Shown here: positions 11,301 to 21,339 of the stretch, piece by piece
Position numbering within the stretch: position 1 is the stretch's first letter
Layout of the letters: the number at the start of each line of letters is the position of its first letter
Origin: Candidatus Eiseniibacteriota bacterium
Lineage (GTDB): Bacteria; JAFGKV01
Direction: 5' to 3'
DNA length: 22,507 nt
Assembly (NCBI GenBank): GCA_025453925.1
Contig: JALOPK010000046.1
Coordinates: forward strand, 1 to 22,507
The notes under the pieces: generated by a model
The model's database searches: none
Seen by the model: only the letters and a program-made list of their open reading frames with translations
Told to the model about the DNA's origin: nothing
Made by a program: the position numbers and the translations under genes

Positions 11301-12299
11301 GTGCATGGCCCGCTGATCTCAGGGGTCGCTCCGTCCGGCCCGTCACCCGGCCAGCACGGTGTCGATCTCTCGGTTCTGATCGTGAACACCAACAGCCGCG
11401 ACCTCCTCCTGGAGTGTCTTCGCTCGGTGTACGACACGGTGGCGACCCCGTTCGAGATCATCGTCGTCGACAATGCCTCGACCGATGGTTCCCTGGACGC
11501 CGTCCGTTCCATGTTCCCCCGCGTGGCGCTGATTGCCAACGGCAGGAACAACTGGTTCACGGGCGCCACCAACCAGGCGCTTCGGGCTAGCCGTGGCTCC
11601 TGGTTGCTCTGCCTGAACCCCGACACGATTTGCCATCCCGGGGCAATCGACCGGCTGGTTGGGTTTCTTCGCGCCCATCCGCAGGTCGCGGTGGTGGGGC
11701 CCAGACTGCTCAACGGAGACGGCAGCCTGCAGCCGTCATGCCGGAACTTCCTGACGAATCGCCGTCTCGTGCTCCAGCATATCCTCCCCTGGCGCCGCCT
11801 GCCCAACTCCTGGCGGGCGCACGCCGTTTTGGAGTACTGGGATCACGACGCGCCGCGCAGGGTAGATTGGGTGATCGGCGCATGCATTCTCGTCCGCCGG
11901 ACCGCGGTCGAGGAAGTCGGATTGAAGGATGAAGGATACCCCATTTTTCACGAGGAGACCGACTGGTGCTATCGCTTCCGCCGCGCCGGGTGGGAGACAT
12001 GGTTCATTCCGGATGCCAGAGTGACTCACTTCGGCAGTCAGACCGTGAGCAAGCTCTGGGGCAGAGGGTTGGTGATTGAGTTCTACAAGGGCAAACATCG
12101 TTTCATCCGCACGCACTACGGCCGAGTTGCCCTGCTGGGCCACCGCGCGCTGCTGGCCGGCCTGCTCTTGACGAGACTCGTGCGCGCGTATCTTGCCCGG
12201 ATCGCGGGGCGGAGGGAATCCCTTCACGATGAGATCGAAATCATGCGGCGAGCGCTGGCTCTGCAGCTTGGGATTGCGAGAGGGAGACGTGAACACTGA
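11301..12299 (+). CDS. Family 2 glycosyltransferase (rhamnosyltransferase-like)
   Basis: A cytoplasmic, membrane-associated GT-A glycosyltransferase of 332 residues, resembling WbbL-type rhamnosyltransferases. After a short variable leader the fold starts with DLSVLIVNTNSRDLL (22-36), then EIIVVDNASTDGS, and the nucleotide-sugar/metal site appears as LCLNPDT. VDWVIGACILVRR and FHEETDWCYRFRRAGW (catalytic acidic residues in the EETD segment) are typical of this subgroup, followed by DARVTHFGSQT. The C-terminus carries a basic/hydrophobic region that may bind the membrane. The GTG start has GAGG about 9 nt upstream. Its 3' end overlaps the GmhAB fusion gene by 11 nt, linking glycosyl transfer with production of a sugar phosphate. 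Donor and acceptor cannot be told. Confidence 0.9.
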   Translation: MHGPLISGVAPSGPSPGQHGVDLSVLIVNTNSRDLLLECLRSVYDTVATPFEIIVVDNASTDGSLDAVRSMFPRVALIANGRNNWFTGATNQALRASRGSWLLCLNPDTICHPGAIDRLVGFLRAHPQVAVVGPRLLNGDGSLQPSCRNFLTNRRLVLQHILPWRRLPNSWRAHAVLEYWDHDAPRRVDWVIGACILVRRTAVEEVGLKDEGYPIFHEETDWCYRFRRAGWETWFIPDARVTHFGSQTVSKLWGRGLVIEFYKGKHRFIRTHYGRVALLGHRALLAGLLLTRLVRAYLARIAGRRESLHDEIEIMRRALALQLGIARGRREH

Positions 12300-13422
12300 T
12301 ACCTACTTGCGCACGGTGGCCAGGACTCTGGAGGCGATGCCTCGAGAGCCGGTTGACCGGCTGGTGGACGAGCTTGATCGGGCGTGGCGGCGCAACGCCC
12401 AGGTGTTTCTCCTGGGCAATGGAGGCTCCGCCGCCGCGGCCGCCCATCTGGCCTGCGACCTGGGCAAAGGCACGGTGCAGCAAGGGGCGCACCGAATGCG
12501 AATCATCCCGTTGGTTGACAATGTGCCCCTGATCACCGCGTGGGCGAATGACACTGCATACGAGCGGGTCTTCGTGGAGCAACTCGCCGGCCTGTTGAGG
12601 CCAGGCGACCTGGTGATCGCCATCAGTGGGAGCGGGAACTCGCCCAACGTAATCAGAGCTGTCGAGTATGCCGCTGCAATGGCGGCCACCACAGTGGGCA
12701 TCACCGGTTTTTCCGGCGGGCGCCTTGCCGGAATGGTCGACCTCCCCGTGATCGTTCCGGACGACTGCATGGAGCGCATCGAGGATGTCCACTTGGTGAT
12801 CGGACATGCGGCGGCGGTGGCGCTCCGGGGGCGGATTGCCGCCGCTGCGGCGGCCGAGCCGGTGGTGTTCGTCGACCGTGATGGGGTCATCAATGCGCTG
12901 GGTCCCGGGGCCGGGTACGTCACCAGCTGGGAGCAGTTTGATTTCTTCCCCGGCGCACTGGAGGGGCTTGCGGAACTCCGCCGTCGAGGCCTTCGCGTGG
13001 TCGTGGTCACCAACCAGAGCTGTATCGGCCGCGGGTATGTGTCCTACGAAGAGGTGCGCGCCATTCACCTCCTCATGGAGGAGCGGGTGAGAGAGGCAGG
13101 AGGGGCCATCCATGCCGTCTACCTGTGTCCCCATCGCCCGGAAGACGGCTGCGGATGCCGGAAACCCAAGCCGGGGCTGTTTCTCACCGCGAAGGATGAC
13201 CTGGGGATTGACCTGGAGCGCTCGATCGTTATCGGCGATCATCATACGGACATAGAGGTTGCGGCCAGGATCGGAGCGACCCCCATTCTCGTGTTGACCG
13301 GGCATGGGCAGGCATCCGTCGATTCCTGCACCGCTCCACCGGCTGCGGTAGTGGCCGACCTGTCCGCCGCGGTGCACTGGATCGTTGAGCATGCTGTCAT
13401 CGGCGCCACGCACGGCGCGTAA
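12289..13422 (+). CDS. GmhA-GmhB fusion: phosphosugar isomerase (SIS) plus HAD phosphatase
   Basis: Two enzyme domains of heptose activation appear on one 377-residue chain. Residues 1-185 are a GmhA-type SIS domain: LLGNGGSAAAAAHLACDLGKG (41-61), AISGSGNSPNVIRA (111-124) and EDVHLVIGH (165-173). Residues 190-370 are a GmhB-type HAD phosphatase: VVFVDRDGVIN (192-202, D196 nucleophile and D198), VVTNQSCIGRG (239-249), the zinc-binding CPHRPEDGCGC (C280, H282, C288, C290) and IGDHHTDIEVA (315-325). In the known pathway GmhA makes heptose 7-phosphate from sedoheptulose 7-phosphate and GmhB removes the C7 phosphate of the bisphosphate; the kinase/nucleotidyltransferase HldE is not in this window. 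I chose the GTG at 12289 because it has an adjacent GAGGGAG-like site and starts at the SIS helix. It overlaps the GT2 gene by 11 nt. Confidence 0.9.
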   Translation: MNTDTYLRTVARTLEAMPREPVDRLVDELDRAWRRNAQVFLLGNGGSAAAAAHLACDLGKGTVQQGAHRMRIIPLVDNVPLITAWANDTAYERVFVEQLAGLLRPGDLVIAISGSGNSPNVIRAVEYAAAMAATTVGITGFSGGRLAGMVDLPVIVPDDCMERIEDVHLVIGHAAAVALRGRIAAAAAAEPVVFVDRDGVINALGPGAGYVTSWEQFDFFPGALEGLAELRRRGLRVVVVTNQSCIGRGYVSYEEVRAIHLLMEERVREAGGAIHAVYLCPHRPEDGCGCRKPKPGLFLTAKDDLGIDLERSIVIGDHHTDIEVAARIGATPILVLTGHGQASVDSCTAPPAAVVADLSAAVHWIVEHAVIGATHGA

Positions 13423-14365: not shown

Positions 14366-15693
14366 AGACGGCAGTACTCGGCCTCATCCTCGCGGTGCTT
14401 CTCAGCGCATGCGCGAAGAAGGGTCGTCCGGGCGGAGGACCAGAAGACAAGAGCGGTCCCTTCGTCGAGCGGTGGAGTCCGGTGGCCGGCGAGGACGGCG
14501 TCCCACCGGAACGCTCATTCCAGATGACATGGAGCGAGCCGGTCCAGCATGCCTCGGTGGACGACAACCTCTTCGTCAGCCCCGACACCGCGGTCATCGA
14601 CAAGACATGGGACGGCCGGACCCTCTCCCTGACTCCGCGGGGTGGATGGCTGCCTGATGTGAGCCACTGGGTATGGATCGGGGCCGGCGTCCTTGACAGA
14701 CAAGCGCTTCCCATGGAGGAACCCTTCGGCGTCTGGTTTTCCACAGGGGCGGACACCGGTGCGTCCGCCGGCATCAGCGGTGCGACACTTCTTGATAACG
14801 CTCCCGCTGCGGGGGTGATCATCACCGTGAGCCAGGCGGGGAGTCCCCTGCAATGGACCTGCCTGAGCGGTGCCGATGGGTCATTTCAGGCTCCGGAGCT
14901 GGCGTCCGGCCAGTGGCGCCTGACCGCCTTTGCGGATCGCGATCGAAATCGCCGTTACCACCGAGGCACTGAACCGTGGGCGGGTGCGTCGCTGAGCATG
15001 CCGGCCGACTCCGGTGCCCCGCTCCGCCTTGTGCTTTCTCCTGAGGACATCATCGCGCCCATCCTCCGTGACGTCCGAGCGGAGCATTCGCGGAGGATCC
15101 GTCTCGGGTTCTCCGAACCGCTCGGAGCGGCGCCCGACAGCGCGTTCGCCCTCCTGGATACTTCGGGCGCGCGTCATGACATCGAGTCGGTATGCTTGTC
15201 CGCAGCGGATCCCGCCGGCGTCCGGCTTCTCCTCGCCCGTCCGCTCCGCGATGATCCGATGCGTATCTCAGTGTCCGGCGTCCGCGATTCAGCTGATCTG
15301 GCTGGAGCGGACACGATGGTGGCGTTCATGGGGACGAGTCTCGCCGATACCGTTGCTCCCGAAGTGTATCGATTGCTGTACGACGTCACGTCACCGCCAC
15401 GCTTCTGGCTTATGTTCACCGAACCAATGGACACGGCGAGCGCGGAGGATTTCCTAGTCTTGGATGTTCCGACGCTCTCGCCCGTGGAAGGGCGCGCCGC
15501 GTGGGTGGATCCACAGGTGCTGGCGTGGTCCGCGAACACGTCGCCACCTTCCGATCATCGGTTGCTGACGGTGCTCGCGGGAGCGAGTGATCGGGCGGGC
15601 CTGCCGCTGGTGTCCCTGATCCGCATGATGCCGGTCCCGGCGGACTCAGTGCTCCCGTCGTGGGAGCCGGGGAGAGTCGCCCCGTCGCCGTGA
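14362..15693 (+). CDS. Exported lipoprotein with SbsA-type Ig-like domain(s)
   Basis: A 443-residue predicted lipoprotein with signal sequence MKTAVLGLILAVLLSAC and lipobox LSAC (C17). Directly after it comes KKGRPGGGPEDKSGPFV, a linker common in Bacteroidota/Gemmatimonadota lipoproteins that carry a Big_5 (SbsA Ig-like) domain. The first Ig-like unit follows (about 38-130, with VPPERSFQMTWSEPV). A carboxypeptidase-regulatory-like beta sandwich comes next (about 136-215, with the FADRDRNRRYHRGTEPW turn). Two more segments with FSEP/FTEP motifs (IRLGFSEPL and FWLMFTEPMD) look like further Big_5-like units. It is probably anchored in the outer membrane or periplasm as a structural or adhesive protein; no enzyme motif is seen. 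The GTG start shares GTGA with the argF stop, and the same arrangement is seen at its own 3' end with ispH. Confidence 0.82.
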   Translation: MKTAVLGLILAVLLSACAKKGRPGGGPEDKSGPFVERWSPVAGEDGVPPERSFQMTWSEPVQHASVDDNLFVSPDTAVIDKTWDGRTLSLTPRGGWLPDVSHWVWIGAGVLDRQALPMEEPFGVWFSTGADTGASAGISGATLLDNAPAAGVIITVSQAGSPLQWTCLSGADGSFQAPELASGQWRLTAFADRDRNRRYHRGTEPWAGASLSMPADSGAPLRLVLSPEDIIAPILRDVRAEHSRRIRLGFSEPLGAAPDSAFALLDTSGARHDIESVCLSAADPAGVRLLLARPLRDDPMRISVSGVRDSADLAGADTMVAFMGTSLADTVAPEVYRLLYDVTSPPRFWLMFTEPMDTASAEDFLVLDVPTLSPVEGRAAWVDPQVLAWSANTSPPSDHRLLTVLAGASDRAGLPLVSLIRMMPVPADSVLPSWEPGRVAPSP

Positions 15694-16859
15694 CCAACCC
15701 GCTTCGTCCCAGCCCGCTTGTCTCGCACCTGCGCCGGCATGAATCGCTGACTGCCGGTTCCACCGAGTTGGTCCTGGCGGGCACCACAGGCATGTGCAGG
15801 GGTGTCAAACGGGCGCTGGGCATGGTCGCCAAGGCCCGGGAAGGCCTGTCTGATGGTCGACGCGTTCTGCTTCTGCACGAGATCATCCACAACCCGACAG
15901 TGGGGCGATGGTTGCGCGCGGGAGGCATTGAGACGCTTGATACTGAAGCCGATGAGTGGTGGGCGGCGCTCTCTGCGGCCGACACGGTCATCATTCCCGC
16001 GTTCGGGGCCACGGTCAACGATGAACGGCTGCTTCGTGCTGCCGGCGTCAAGGTCATTGACACCACCTGCCCCAGCGTCCGAGGGGTGTGGTCAAGGGTG
16101 TCGGCATACGCCCAGGCCGGGTTCACCACTGTGCTCCACGGAAGACCTGACCACCCCGAGACGCGGGCGACGCTCTCACGGGCGATCGCCGCCGGAGGGC
16201 ACTACCTCGTGGTGCGGGAGGCAGCCGACGCGCGAGAAGTGGCCGAGGTAATAGGCGGTGCGGAAAACGGCGGCGTGGTCAGGCTGGGGGAGGGGGTCCT
16301 GAGCCCCGGATTCGAGTCGGCCCGGGATCTGACCCGCATAGGTCTCGTCAACCAAACCACCATGCTGGCGGACGAGTCGCGGGAGATCGCCGCTGTGCTT
16401 GGTGATGCATTGATCCGGCGGTACGGAGACCGGGAACTGGAGTCTCGGTTTCGCACTTTTGGAACAATCTGCCGGGCAACCCAGGAACGGCAGGATGCCA
16501 TCCGGCGGCTGACCAATCGGGCCCTGGACCTGCTCTTCGTAGTCGGAGGCCACGCCAGCAGCAACACACGCCATCTGGCCGAACTGGGAGGCCGTTCCGT
16601 GCGAACCTACCACGTGGAGGGGCCGCAGGCCCTGCAAAGCCTGACCGCCCTGCGGCACCAATCCTTGGGCACTCGTACGGCAGCCATCGATGACATTGCC
16701 TGGCTCGCGGACCTGCCGCACCGAGTTGTCGGCTTCGCGGGAGGCGCATCAACCCCCGACGCCGAGGTGGGGGAAACTATGGTCCGGCTTCTCCTGCTGT
16801 TGGGGGAGCCGTGCCCACCAGTCGCGGAGGCGGAACGGATCCTTGCGGCGCATGGGTAG
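15690..16859 (+). CDS. ispH: 4-hydroxy-3-methylbut-2-enyl diphosphate reductase, plant/cyanobacterial type
   Basis: Last enzyme of the MEP isoprenoid pathway, reducing HMBPP to IPP and DMAPP with a 4Fe-4S cluster, in the cytoplasm. The cluster cysteines are C36 (GMCRGVKRAL), C127 (DTTCPSVRGVW) and C261 (CRATQERQDA); HEIIHNPTV (63-71) and HGRPDHPETRAT (150-161) are substrate-site motifs. HEIIHNPTV, TQERQDA, SSNTRHLAEL and GGASTPD, together with the 389-residue length, match the longer IspH of plants and cyanobacteria rather than the roughly 316-residue E. coli form. The GTG at 15690 shares GTGA with the previous stop; an in-frame GTG at 15660 is the alternative. It ends the plus-strand run and its last 83 nt overlap a convergent small gene. 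Confidence 0.93.
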   Translation: MTNPLRPSPLVSHLRRHESLTAGSTELVLAGTTGMCRGVKRALGMVAKAREGLSDGRRVLLLHEIIHNPTVGRWLRAGGIETLDTEADEWWAALSAADTVIIPAFGATVNDERLLRAAGVKVIDTTCPSVRGVWSRVSAYAQAGFTTVLHGRPDHPETRATLSRAIAAGGHYLVVREAADAREVAEVIGGAENGGVVRLGEGVLSPGFESARDLTRIGLVNQTTMLADESREIAAVLGDALIRRYGDRELESRFRTFGTICRATQERQDAIRRLTNRALDLLFVVGGHASSNTRHLAELGGRSVRTYHVEGPQALQSLTALRHQSLGTRTAAIDDIAWLADLPHRVVGFAGGASTPDAEVGETMVRLLLLLGEPCPPVAEAERILAAHG

Positions 16860-17535: not shown

Positions 17536-18660
17536 TCAGCCGATTGCCGCGAGCGGTTCGAACTCCTCGACGAGGGCCGGCACGCCGGCGAATTCCTCGT
17601 ACACAGATCCCATTTCCGCGGCGCGGTCATTGTAGAGATGGAGATGACCGCGGAAATTGCGCAGAATCACCTGTCGGCCTTCCCTGCGGACATACTCTTC
17701 GGGCAGGATGGGGATCTTTCCGCCACCCCCCGGGGAGTCAATCACGAAGTGCGGAACGGCCATGCCCGATGTGTGGCCGCGCAGCCCGCGGATCACGTTG
17801 AGGCCCGTCTCGATTGGCGTGCAGAAATGTGCGGTCCCATCCACCAGGTCGGCCTGGAACATGTAGTAGGGCTTCACGCGGGCCGCCAGCAGCCTGCGGT
17901 TCAGTTCCAAGAACACCGCGGGGTCGTCATTCACCCCGCGCAGAAGCACCGACTGATTGCCCAGTGGTATGCCCGCGTCGGCCAGCCGGGCCAACGCTCG
18001 AACCGCCTCGGGGGTGAGCTCGCGGGGATGTTCGAAGTGAGTGTTCACGTAGAGCGGGTGATACTTCCGCAGCGTGTTCACCAGACGCGGCGTGATCCTC
18101 TGGGGCAAGGTGCAGGGAGCCCGGGTTCCCACGCGGATGACCTCCACGTGGGGGATTCGGCGCAGCCCGCTGAGGATGCTGTCTATGAGGCCGTCGGACA
18201 GCATGAGCGGGTCACCGCCCGAGACCACCACGTCACGGATCTCCGGCGTCCGCTCGATGTACGCCAACCCTTCCCGGCGCATCTCCTCGGAGACGCTCCA
18301 GTCCGTCCCGACCTTCCGTTTCCTGGTGCAGAACCGGCAGTACATGGCACACTGGGTCGAGACCAGGAACAGGGCACGGTCAGGGTACCGATGCACGACG
18401 CATGGCACCGGGCTCATGCTCTCCTCCGCCAAGGGGTCAGACACCAGTCCGAACGAATCCAGCTCGGCGGGATCAGGGATACATTGTTTCGCGATCGGAT
18501 CACTCAACTGCCGGATCAGATCCAAGTAGTACGGGGTCACACACATCGGGTACACCTCGGCGACGCGCTCCATCGCCTCCACATCAATCCCAGGAAAGCG
18601 TCTGCTCAACTGGGCCGGCGTGCGGATTGCCGAGGCAAGGAACTCCTGCCAGAGTTCCAT
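17536..18660 (-). CDS. kamA: Lysine 2,3-aminomutase (KamA family, PLP-dependent radical SAM)
   Basis: This enzyme family moves the alpha-amino group of an amino acid to the beta carbon using SAM, a 4Fe-4S cluster and PLP; here the likely product is L-beta-lysine. The 374 residues have CAMYCRFC (C104, C108, C111), TRKRKVG just after it, VVVSGGDPLMLSD (144-156), TRAPCTLPQRIT (179-190), and the PLP lysine K315 in PGGGGKIP. Both acidic residues that bind the lysine side chain in the clostridial enzyme have counterparts: D271 (FQADLVDGT) and D308 (VIDSPGGGG). This favours lysine over glutamate as substrate, and separates it from EpmB only weakly. It is shorter at the C-terminus than clostridial KamA (about 416). 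A GGAGG site 4 nt upstream supports the ATG at 18660. It is downstream of two ATP-grasp genes and a GNAT gene in one operon. Confidence 0.9.
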   Translation of the reverse strand: MELWQEFLASAIRTPAQLSRRFPGIDVEAMERVAEVYPMCVTPYYLDLIRQLSDPIAKQCIPDPAELDSFGLVSDPLAEESMSPVPCVVHRYPDRALFLVSTQCAMYCRFCTRKRKVGTDWSVSEEMRREGLAYIERTPEIRDVVVSGGDPLMLSDGLIDSILSGLRRIPHVEVIRVGTRAPCTLPQRITPRLVNTLRKYHPLYVNTHFEHPRELTPEAVRALARLADAGIPLGNQSVLLRGVNDDPAVFLELNRRLLAARVKPYYMFQADLVDGTAHFCTPIETGLNVIRGLRGHTSGMAVPHFVIDSPGGGGKIPILPEEYVRREGRQVILRNFRGHLHLYNDRAAEMGSVYEEFAGVPALVEEFEPLAAIG

Positions 18661-18685
18661 CGTTCCTCCACTCCCTCCTTACCCT

Positions 18686-19177
18686 CTAGCTCCGCCAGAG
18701 GGTCTTGACGAAGACCACCTTTGCATCTCCCGGCTTGTAGAAGTCGGGAATCCGGGCTTCTTCCCGGAAACCTGTTCGTAGATAGAATGAGCGGGCTGGT
18801 GCGTAGGGTTCGGTGCCCGACGTCTCCGCGATAAGCAACCGCCCCTCACGGGAAACCACATCCAGCTCAACCTCGCGGAGCAGTGCCGCGGCCACACCGC
18901 GCCGCCCGAGAGCCGGCGACACCGCGATCCAATAGAGGTCGAAGGTTCCTTCGGTGCAGGGGGTCGGACCCCAGCAGGCGTAGCCCGCTACGCGCCCCCC
19001 GACCCTGGCCACGCAGGCGAAATAGCCTGAGGCATCGCCATCCTGGGCGACTGTCTCCAACAGCTCGCGTGCCACGCCCACCTCGCAGGGGCGAAACACG
19101 CCGGTTGCCTCGACGACTGCGACGACACCGTCGACATCATCCATGTGCAACGGGGCGATCACAACGGTCTCTTCCAT
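18686..19177 (-). CDS. GNAT-family N-acetyltransferase
   Basis: A 163-residue GNAT enzyme, transferring an acetyl group from acetyl-CoA to an amine. The acetyl-CoA binding motif is seen as IAVSPALGRRGVAAALLREVE (about 88-108), preceded by the VGGRVAGYACWGP strand pair and followed by FYLRTGF and a C-terminal VVFVKTL strand. It covers a complete minimal GNAT fold. In the known abl pathway an acetyltransferase (AblB) acetylates beta-lysine made by AblA/KamA; this protein is shorter than archaeal AblB, so equivalence is not established, but its position next to kamA makes beta-lysine or a beta-lysine peptide a good substrate candidate. The ATG at 19177 has GGAG 5 nt upstream and overlaps the ATP-grasp gene by 19 nt; a GTG at 19162 (GTGA overlap) is an alternative start. 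Confidence 0.86.
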   Translation of the reverse strand: MEETVVIAPLHMDDVDGVVAVVEATGVFRPCEVGVARELLETVAQDGDASGYFACVARVGGRVAGYACWGPTPCTEGTFDLYWIAVSPALGRRGVAAALLREVELDVVSREGRLLIAETSGTEPYAPARSFYLRTGFREEARIPDFYKPGDAKVVFVKTLWRS

Positions 19178-20160
19178 GCCGTCTCCATCATATTGTTGAC
19201 AAGCCTTTCGTAGGTGAATCCCGCCTCTGCGGCCGCCAGGGCGAGACCCGCGACACGTGAGATATCAGGATTCGGGTTCACGTCGATCACATATGCCGTG
19301 CCGTCGCCGTCCAGCCTGATGTCGATTCGGGCGTAGTCCCGGCATCCGAAGGCGCGATAGGTCGCCAAAGACAACGAAGCCAGAGTGGTCCCCAGTCGCT
19401 CGTCCACCGAGGCCGGGCATCGCGGAATCGTCCGCAGGTCGTCGCGGCTTCCCACATGCCACTTGGCATCATGCGACAGCACCCGATACTCCCCCGCGCC
19501 GTATCCCTCGAACACGATTTCAGCCGCCGGTAGCACACGGGTGCCGGACCCCTCGCCCACCACCGACATATTGAACTCCCTGCCGGGAAGGTAGCGCTCG
19601 ACCAGTGCCGGCTGACGATACGTCTCGACCACCCAGCTGACTCGTTCGCGCAATTCCTCGACGTTGCGCACCACCGACTCGATGGTGATTCCCATGCTAC
19701 CGTCTTCTCCCACGGGTTTGACGATGCAGGGAAATGGGAGTGTGCGCGGGACATCGGCCAGCGAGGCTGTCTGAAACACCCACCCTTCCAGCGTCGGAAC
19801 ACCTGCGGCGCGAAGGATCGCCGTGGCGACCCGCTTGTCGAGGGCCCAACTGAGCGTCGTCGCGGTATTGCCGGTGAACCTGATCCCATGAATCTCCAGG
19901 AGGCCGGCCAACAGCGGCTCCCACTGCGAGTGTCCGTCGAGGCCCTCACACAGGTTGAACACTACCGTTCCGGCTCTCCGCTCCGCCAGTCCGCCGAGGG
20001 TGGAAAGGAGGGACCCGGATGACATGCTCCGCGACTCCACAGACTTCCCGCAGGATTCCAGCGCAGCGACTACGTCTTCCACTTCGGAAACGACTCCCGC
20101 CTCCGAGGGTTCGTGCTCCCGCATCGGCTCATTGAACAGCACCACCACCGCGGGTTTCAC
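19159..20160 (-). CDS. ATP-grasp ligase, D-Ala-D-Ala ligase-like, second of pair
   Basis: A 333-residue ATP-grasp enzyme of the carboxylate-amine ligase type, forming an amide bond via an acyl phosphate. Order: N-terminal domain with VVFNLCEGLDG (67-77), FTGNTATTLSWALDK (95-109), central ATP domain with CIVKPVGEDGSMGI (145-158; Lys and glycine-rich loop), ALVERYLPGREFNMSVVG (185-202), and the metal site YARIDIRL (276-283) with VIDVNPNPD (291-299). Where D-Ala-D-Ala ligases usually have HG after the N-terminal strand this has EG, and where they have E-x-N it has D-x-N. It is therefore unlikely to be the housekeeping Ddl. The GTG at 20160 shares GTGA with the upstream ATP-grasp stop; an ATG at 20184 is the alternative. 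The two ATP-grasp proteins are related but clearly diverged. Confidence 0.86.
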   Translation of the reverse strand: MKPAVVVLFNEPMREHEPSEAGVVSEVEDVVAALESCGKSVESRSMSSGSLLSTLGGLAERRAGTVVFNLCEGLDGHSQWEPLLAGLLEIHGIRFTGNTATTLSWALDKRVATAILRAAGVPTLEGWVFQTASLADVPRTLPFPCIVKPVGEDGSMGITIESVVRNVEELRERVSWVVETYRQPALVERYLPGREFNMSVVGEGSGTRVLPAAEIVFEGYGAGEYRVLSHDAKWHVGSRDDLRTIPRCPASVDERLGTTLASLSLATYRAFGCRDYARIDIRLDGDGTAYVIDVNPNPDISRVAGLALAAAEAGFTYERLVNNMMETAWKRPL

Positions 20161-21242
20161 GACGAGAGCCCCCAGCGACGGCATGCCGCAGATGCGACGC
20201 CCAGAATCACGTCGGCGTAATCCATGCCGGCAGCCCGTGCCGCCTTCGGGAAGCAGGAGTGGGCATCCGGGTCCGGCAGCATGCCCGGCAAGGGGTTCAC
20301 CTCGATGACATGAAGGAGACCGGCCCCATCCATCCGGAGATCGATGCGTGCCCAGTCGCGGATGCGCAGGGTCTCGACCGTCCCTCTAATGGTACGCTCG
20401 AGCTTCTCCTGGTCGCTCGGAGCGAGTGTGGCGGGGCACTCGAACACCTCAAGAGGCGCTTCAGGCCGGTCCCAAAGCCACTTCGCCTCCCAAGAGTAGA
20501 TCGGAGAGGAACCGGCGGGAAGGCGATCGAAGCGAAGTTCGACGGGCGGCAGGATGCGAAGACCGGGGCTGTTTCCCATCACGGCCACGGTGAACTCCCG
20601 GCCGGGGAGGAACTCCTCGACGAGAACCGGCTGCGCATAGTCCCGCAGGAGCCGTGCGACGTGCTCGCGGAGGACGCCGAACGACTCCACGACCTGATCG
20701 TCTCGGATGCCTTTGCTGGAGCCTTCGTGCAAGGGTTTCACGATGGCAGGGAACGCCACCGCAATGGACGGGGTGAGGCCGTTGAGATCGGTGATGATGA
20801 CGTGGCGCGGGGTGGGTACGCCATACGACCGCAGGATGGCGTTCGCCCATCCCTTGTGCAGGCAGACCGCCAGTGTGAGTCCATCTGATCCCGTGTAGGG
20901 AATGCGCAGCATGTCGAGCACCGCCGGGACCTGTGCCTCCCGGGCGGGCCCCCACATGCCCTCTGCGACATTGAACACGAGATCCGGTTTCCAGCGGAGA
21001 ACGCGTGGGGCGAATCGGGAATTGGCCTCGATGAGCGCGACCTCGTACTGGCGAGACAGCGCATCGGCCATCGCGAGTATCGTGGGCGCATCGTCCCATT
21101 CGGCATAGACGTCGTCATGACCGCCTATGCCGTCGGCGGGCGGCGGAGGCTCCTCCTCTTCGTCGGGAACAAGCTCGGGCCGGATGGCGAATATGTCGCC
21201 TCTTGCCGCAGGCTTAGCGTTGTAGGCCAGCGCAACACGCAC
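20157..21242 (-). CDS. ATP-grasp ligase, D-Ala-D-Ala ligase-like, first of pair
   Basis: A 361-residue ATP-grasp ligase related to D-Ala-D-Ala ligase. The N-terminal domain starts RVALAYNAKPA and carries an acidic/Pro loop (PDEEEEPPPP, 26-35) not expected in Ddl, then LVFNVAEGMWGPAREAQ (88-104) and IPYTGSDGLTLAVCLHK (114-130). The ATP-binding lysine and loop are AIVKPLHEGSSKGI (166-179), followed by VLVEEFLPGREFTVAVMG (206-223) and the metal ligands in DWARIDLRM (296-304) and VIEVNPLPGM (312-321). As in its partner the usual HG of Ddl is replaced by EG. The GTG at 21242 has GGAG 8 nt upstream and begins exactly at the first core strand; the frame is open further upstream without conserved sequence. 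It is the first gene of the operon and lies about 120 nt downstream of a strong promoter. Confidence 0.87.
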   Translation of the reverse strand: MRVALAYNAKPAARGDIFAIRPELVPDEEEEPPPPADGIGGHDDVYAEWDDAPTILAMADALSRQYEVALIEANSRFAPRVLRWKPDLVFNVAEGMWGPAREAQVPAVLDMLRIPYTGSDGLTLAVCLHKGWANAILRSYGVPTPRHVIITDLNGLTPSIAVAFPAIVKPLHEGSSKGIRDDQVVESFGVLREHVARLLRDYAQPVLVEEFLPGREFTVAVMGNSPGLRILPPVELRFDRLPAGSSPIYSWEAKWLWDRPEAPLEVFECPATLAPSDQEKLERTIRGTVETLRIRDWARIDLRMDGAGLLHVIEVNPLPGMLPDPDAHSCFPKAARAAGMDYADVILGVASAACRRWGLSS

Positions 21243-21339
21243 AGAAGAGTCTCCGTCTTCTTGAGCAGGACGGCAGTCTGAGGGGCCGCGGAGACTCTTC
21301 ACCCTGGTTGTAGGGCAGATGCGGCTCTCGCAACGCCAT
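21214..21339 (-). CDS. Possible 41-residue leader ORF upstream of the ATP-grasp operon
   Basis: An ATG at 21339, directly preceded by GAGGAGGAG, opens a 41-codon frame that ends 29 nt inside the first ATP-grasp gene. The product is Arg/Cys-rich and includes four adjacent arginine codons (AGA AGA CGG AGA), with AGA unusual in such GC-rich DNA. It lies just downstream of the predicted promoter, so it would be transcribed. It could be a leader peptide affecting translation of the first gene, or a chance frame. No homology is recognised; low confidence. Confidence 0.2.
   Translation of the reverse strand: MALREPHLPYNQGEESPRPLRLPSCSRRRRLFCACCAGLQR

Follow-up and report, generated by a model that had tools for sequence, protein, structure and literature searches.

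A conserved operon of a lysine 2,3-aminomutase, two ATP-grasp ligases and an acetyltransferase as a putative pathway to a β-lysine amide

We analysed a stretch of 22,507 nucleotides from a Candidatus Eiseniibacteriota bacterium (contig JALOPK010000046.1 of GenBank assembly GCA_025453925.1; hereafter the window), in which four adjoining genes on the minus strand (17536-21242) look like a real, uncharacterised metabolic pathway. Judged from sequence, their product is most likely an intracellular acetylated β-lysine amide, possibly linked to a polyamine. The genes are transcribed in the order ATPg1, ATPg2, GNAT and KamA. ATPg1 (20157-21242, GTG start) and ATPg2 (19159-20184) encode ATP-grasp ligases of the D-alanine-D-alanine ligase (Ddl) fold, the second with an NPNPD acceptor loop. 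They are followed by a GNAT acetyltransferase (18686-19177) and a KamA-family lysine 2,3-aminomutase of the radical SAM/PLP type (17536-18660). An alternative GTG start of ATPg2 at 20160 gives the 4-nt overlap with ATPg1 reported in the initial annotation of this DNA; ATPg2 and GNAT overlap by 19 nt, and 25 nt separate GNAT from KamA. Gene calls, Pfam and NCBIfam agreed with that annotation on positions, families and spacing, with PF07478 in both ligases (Dala_Dala_lig_C, 100 bits for ATPg1 and 95 bits for ATPg2), Acetyltransf_7 in the single GNAT, and Radical_SAM and LAM_C in KamA. The strong promoter proposed ahead of the operon was found as a sigma-70-type TTGACA-16-TAAAAT with an extended -10 (21389-21362, minus strand), matching the consensus at 11 of 12 positions. 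PADLOC gave no match, and membership in a defence system was rejected.

To place the operon among its relatives, we scanned named genomes with the ligase alignment, which yielded at least 80 loci, mostly from metagenome-assembled genomes. Under the taxon names given by sequence-record or tree annotation, the 80 relatives listed belong to a dozen phyla of bacteria and two groups of archaea: Myxococcota, Thermodesulfobacteriota (Deferrisomatales, Desulfuromonadales), Ignavibacteriota, Kryptoniota, Bacteroidota, Acidobacteria, Planctomycetota, Aminicenantes, Gemmatimonadota, Lentisphaerota, KSB1, Nitrospinota, Thaumarchaeota and Bathyarchaeota. The exact order ATPg1-ATPg2-GNAT-KamA on one strand was kept in 62 of the 80, with genes that mostly overlap (median end-to-start distances of -4, -23 and +11 nt for ATPg1/ATPg2, ATPg2/GNAT and GNAT/KamA). 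Several of the remaining 18 loci are interrupted by contig ends, and rearranged yet linked gene sets occur in Bathyarchaeota, Thaumarchaeota and Nitrospinae. Because the exact order recurs at this frequency in other genomes, the arrangement is not a product of chance; the co-occurrence across phyla that the initial annotation had suggested checking is thus borne out, and the four genes almost certainly form one pathway. A search of 60 genomes recovered the same operon in a congener (G001), together with looser KamA-ligase-ligase sets in distant genomes. The operon was not found in a same-family genome (G002), where the best match was an ordinary Ddl-like gene. Viral carriage was rejected, with a single distant match on a viral contig, and relatives on plasmids are either distant single ligases, for example on rhizobial plasmids, or a KamA-ligase-diaminopropionate cluster of Thioflavicoccus.

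The neighbourhoods of the 80 loci listed contained no general fifth gene and no recurrent transporter, resistance gene, receptor or non-ribosomal peptide synthetase (NRPS), and no osmotic-stress gene, efp gene or target gene recurred beside the operon. The only recurring neighbours were lineage-specific housekeeping genes such as recG. These results bear on the possibility that the operon makes a secreted antibiotic, metallophore or signalling molecule. Streptothricin and capreomycin contain β-lysine, which lends that possibility some appeal. In addition, fungi build E-64 from an acid, an amino acid and an amine, for example agmatine, with an ATP-grasp ligase plus another amide-forming enzyme and no NRPS (PMC12568646). 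Those successive amide-forming steps resemble the pathway proposed here, but the E-64 ATP-grasp sequence is unrelated, its second bond is formed by an ANL-family enzyme, and no β-lysine is involved (PMC12568646). Given the lack of a recurrent export, resistance or receptor gene in the loci listed, and a spread over phyla unlike that of a niche antibiotic, we consider a secreted product improbable.

We then examined whether KamA has the features of an enzyme that makes β-lysine. The window KamA matched lysine 2,3-aminomutase (LAM; PDB 2a5h, E=5.2e-110), and it carries the CxxxCxxC radical SAM motif, the PLP lysine and both lysine-binding aspartates, as read in the initial annotation; these aspartates bind the ε-amine of lysine. 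Equivalents of D293, D330 and K337 (2a5h numbering) were kept in 71 of 71 alignable KamA homologues, and the three cluster cysteines in 76 of 76. In profile searches it scored 438 bits against the AblA model TIGR03820 (cut-off 525.4) and 236 bits against the EpmB model TIGR03821 (cut-off 369.3). A maximum-likelihood tree placed 65 of the 67 operon KamAs outside one 100/100 clade made up of LAM, AblB-linked AblA proteins, KamAs from distant four-gene systems and unlinked KamAs; E. coli EpmB lay outside every operon KamA, on a separate long branch (end branch 5.2 changes per column). The tree comparison with AblA and EpmB that had been proposed therefore set the operon enzymes apart from AblA/LAM and far from EpmB. 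EpmB identity was rejected on both score and tree position, and the grouping with EpmB that would have spoken against the pathway did not occur. From its sequence features, KamA very probably makes β-lysine. The window genome also encodes a second KamA-family protein (G000:C73:4464-5495; L159 4353-5498), which lies under both the AblA and EpmB cut-offs and forms its own long branch.

The two exceptions in the tree, the linked KamAs of Nitrospinae and Nitrospinota, fell within the AblA/LAM-side clade. There they formed a 100/100 clade with the unlinked KamAs of three genomes that bear the ligase pair without an adjoining KamA. The exceptional KamAs are linked to ATPg1; those of Nitrospinae are linked to ATPg2 and GNAT as well. 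Nitrospinae and some delta-proteobacterial genomes have thus swapped one KamA lineage for another lysine-aminomutase lineage and retained the ligases. Such a replacement suggests that the pathway needs the KamA reaction, that is, β-lysine, and it is the strongest indirect argument that β-lysine supply is what counts.

A further possibility is that the ligases attach β-lysine to a protein or another macromolecule, by analogy with the β-lysylation of elongation factor P by EpmA/EpmB, which likewise depends on a KamA-family enzyme for β-lysine. β-Lysine is a known protein modification, and ATP-grasp ligases such as RimK modify proteins. However, the operon KamA is not EpmB, the ligases have the fold of Ddl enzymes, which act on small amino acids, and neither efp nor another target gene accompanies the operon. 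We regard macromolecule modification as very unlikely. As a separate observation, a search of the window genome (assembly 82% complete) with TIGR00038 found no elongation factor P; the same search was positive in 14 of 14 control genomes.

Both ligases belong to the Ddl-fold ATP-grasp superfamily, as indicated by PF07478, by their conserved residues and, for ATPg2, by an AlphaFold2 model (pLDDT 93) whose best Foldseek matches were Ddl structures at only 17-26% identity. Equivalents of the Mg-ATP and catalytic residues K97, K144, E187, K215, R255, D257, E270 and N272 (Ddl numbering) are kept in both. The substrate pocket is different. In the alignment with Ddl, Y216 is replaced by W in 82 of 87 ATPg1 and 81 of 82 ATPg2 proteins; ATPg1 has E in place of H63 (87 of 87) and retains S281 and G276, and ATPg2 has D in place of G276 (77 of 82) and A in place of S281 (60 of 82). 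The column of Ddl E15 is not reliably aligned in ATPg2 and was not used as evidence. Against the Ddl model TIGR01205, ATPg1 scored 125 bits and ATPg2 107 bits, both under the cut-off of 245.65, which a separate true Ddl of the window genome exceeded with 305 bits. In a ligase tree built by a quick method, ATPg1 formed a single clade flanked by its distant counterparts, and ATPg2 lay elsewhere, so that each ligase stood next to its counterparts in distant KamA-ligase systems. Ddls made up a third group, save one long-branched sequence, with moderate support for the deep splits (79-94%). Since the scores lie under the cut-off, a true Ddl is encoded separately, and the two proteins form their own clades with an altered pocket and intact Mg-ATP residues, the predicted ligases are not ordinary D-Ala-D-Ala ligases. 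A Ddl pair was accordingly rejected; the initial annotation, which had named such a pair as grounds for abandoning its proposal, was right to see two different Ddl-like ligases here. β-Lysine is probably a substrate of these ligases. In Ddl, Ser281 holds the acceptor carboxylate, and the acidic residue in the acceptor loop of ATPg2 would suit an amine without a carboxylate.

The Ddl fold could also point to a modification of the cell wall or envelope. This we consider highly improbable, as a separate Ddl serves the wall and the system is present on archaeal contigs (L122, L126 and L130), archaea being without this peptidoglycan. Overall, the initial interpretation stands in so far as it proposed a conserved β-lysine- and ATP-grasp-dependent pathway, which as a pathway is well supported. 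Its antibiotic, siderophore and peptidoglycan versions are disfavoured because no transporter, resistance gene or NRPS is recurrently linked and archaeal contigs carry the system.

The GNAT was compared with known acetyltransferases. It shares a family with PDB 2r7h (profile E=1.4e-49; predicted model TM about 0.9 at 46% identity), Dde_3044 of Desulfovibrio, which was deposited as a putative D-alanine N-acetyltransferase without a known substrate. The window GNAT passed no curated cut-off in NCBIfam. The AblB model TIGR03827 had no match in the window genome and, among 37 operon GNATs, matched one, weakly (E=2.3e-4). The abl pathway is a related system: AblA and AblB likewise combine, in one cluster, a KamA that makes β-lysine with a GNAT. 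The operon might make an N-acetyl-β-lysine-type compatible solute, with the ligases extending it to an acetylated β-lysine di- or tripeptide osmolyte, and the pairing of KamA with GNAT and the absence of recurrent export genes fit this idea. The operon differs, however, by two added ligases, its GNAT is not AblB, its KamA lies outside the AblA clade, and no osmotic-stress genes recur alongside. A simple abl operon was rejected, as KamA scores below the AblA cut-off and lies outside the AblB-linked AblA clade, and no AblB is linked; the extended abl-type solute seems unlikely to us.

Four loci contain a further gene adjoining the system, which encodes a fusion of about 580 amino acids between an N-terminal GNAT and a histone-deacetylase-type (HDAC) domain. 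In Deferrisomatales it immediately follows an operon-type KamA, in two Desulfuromonadales it lies upstream of ATPg1, and in a distant system it comes after GNAT (L158 1179-2939 and L073 192-1946, plus strand; L123 3909-5675 and L045 6078-7811, minus strand). Full-length fusions also occur away from the system in the congener and in a Geoalkalibacter. Bacterial HDAC-type enzymes include acetylpolyamine deacetylases (PMC11532494), which makes reversible acetylation of an amine plausible here by analogy. Polyamine acetylation and deacetylation similarly pair a GNAT with an HDAC-type enzyme on amines (PMC11532494), although the fusion is linked in only a few operon carriers. Seven loci, annotated as Deltaproteobacteria, Thermodesulfobacteriota, Proteobacteria or Nitrospinae, have a pyruvoyl arginine decarboxylase (PvlArgDC) ahead of the ligases, in most cases accompanied by agmatinase and a gene resembling deoxyhypusine synthase. 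Genome-wide, PvlArgDC was present in 26 of 40 carriers versus 51 of 145 others, a difference confounded by ancestry, and it is absent from the window genome and the congener. Polyamine genes as an obligatory partner were rejected, as PvlArgDC is missing in the window's genus. The initial annotation had not anticipated that some lineages link the system to polyamine and deacetylase genes. One of the compared loci (L062 5084-5989, plus strand) has a third, unrelated ATP-grasp-like protein, with a weak ATPgrasp_ST match, between arginine decarboxylase and ATPg1.

From these results we infer the following reaction order, acceptor, acetylation site and physiological role. KamA would convert L-lysine to β-lysine (3,6-diaminohexanoate) inside the cell, and ATPg1 and ATPg2 would form two amide bonds with β-lysine as acyl donor, amine acceptor or both. 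GNAT would acetylate an amine, in the intermediate or in the product, whether to cap it or to block the side-chain amine temporarily. An aerobactin-like scheme discussed in the literature (PMC2922099) offers a precedent, with a GNAT blocking the side-chain amine of lysine ahead of dipeptide formation. In some hosts the HDAC-type enzyme may reverse the acetylation. The product, a small soluble β-lysine amide, would stay in the cell and act like a solute or a polyamine, not like a secreted compound; in at least some lineages a polyamine or some other amine may serve as its acceptor. We slightly favour this overall assignment, a conserved biosynthetic operon in which KamA, two dedicated ligases and GNAT would yield a small soluble intracellular β-lysine amide. 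Acetylation of the product or an intermediate is rather probable, a polyamine-type acceptor can be suggested tentatively, and a role as an osmolyte is doubtful. It is equally a long shot that the bacterial and archaeal pathway makes a new class of cationic metabolite, in which two ATP-grasp enzymes join β-lysine to an amine or polyamine under the control of reversible acetylation, and which replaces or extends polyamines in many carriers. Several observations weigh against the assignment: KamA falls short of the curated AblA cut-off, GNAT is closer to RimI- and AAC-type GNATs than to AblB, the 80 loci are those nearest to the window ATPg1 and no random sample, and the polyamine linkage is limited to few lineages, PvlArgDC being a lineage trait.

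The operon start carries an inverted repeat, GAAGAGTCTCC...GGAGACTCTTC, in a 57-nt block (21244-21300, minus strand) that immediately precedes the ATPg1 start and is identical in the congener (L042 8555-8611). The operon of a Deferrisomatales locus (L053 2258-2312) has identical 11-nt arms and a different loop. The repeat covers the ribosome-binding site, with GGAG within its 3' arm. It is confined to the window's genus and the Deferrisomatales locus and therefore does not belong to the system in general. No Rfam family or riboswitch was matched at the operon start of the window and 21 other loci, and a known RNA family was rejected. As the repeat shows no covariation and the fold is not unusually stable (z -1.3), it could be either an RNA switch or a DNA operator.

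Some related loci differ from the operon. The Thioflavicoccus plasmid pTHIMO01 (L041 4557-10038) combines KamA and a Ddl-like ligase with SbnA-like and ornithine-cyclodeaminase-like genes and a diaminobutyrate aminotransferase, a candidate for a different β-lysine/diaminopropionate pathway. Rhizobial plasmids (pNGR234a and others; L039 7863-8873, L040 7857-8870) bear a single ATPg-like ligase whose neighbour is an MFS transporter or a CapA-family protein; no KamA is annotated close by. Two ATPg-like ligase domains share one open frame in L043 (8723-11584, genome G030), near RPE65-type and peptidase S58 genes. A reduced variant in genome G032 (L049 3504-7758, and L048) has KamA and one ligase, with genes for a DUF3887/alpha-beta hydrolase and a DUF4126 protein after them. 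Elsewhere in the window, on the plus strand, 12193-13422 encodes a fusion of a SIS domain with an HAD phosphatase, as expected of a fused heptose-phosphate isomerase/phosphatase, and 15660-16859 an IspH nearest the long type (PRK13371, 340 bits versus a cut-off of 440) rather than the common short form.

Our literature search found no description of the four-gene system and no metabolite assigned to it, within a partial coverage that did not include the amidoligase survey of Iyer et al. (2009), the likeliest place of an earlier mention, and with term matching that was partly blunt; the novelty of the description is thus not certain. A compact four-gene unit that has stayed intact in a dozen phyla of bacteria and has archaeal relatives must have a useful product. 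Carriers include Stygiobacter electus and, as named in its sequence record, Melioribacter roseus, so the product can be sought directly in named organisms. Such a product would give substrates to two large protein groups that are now misnamed D-alanine-D-alanine ligases.

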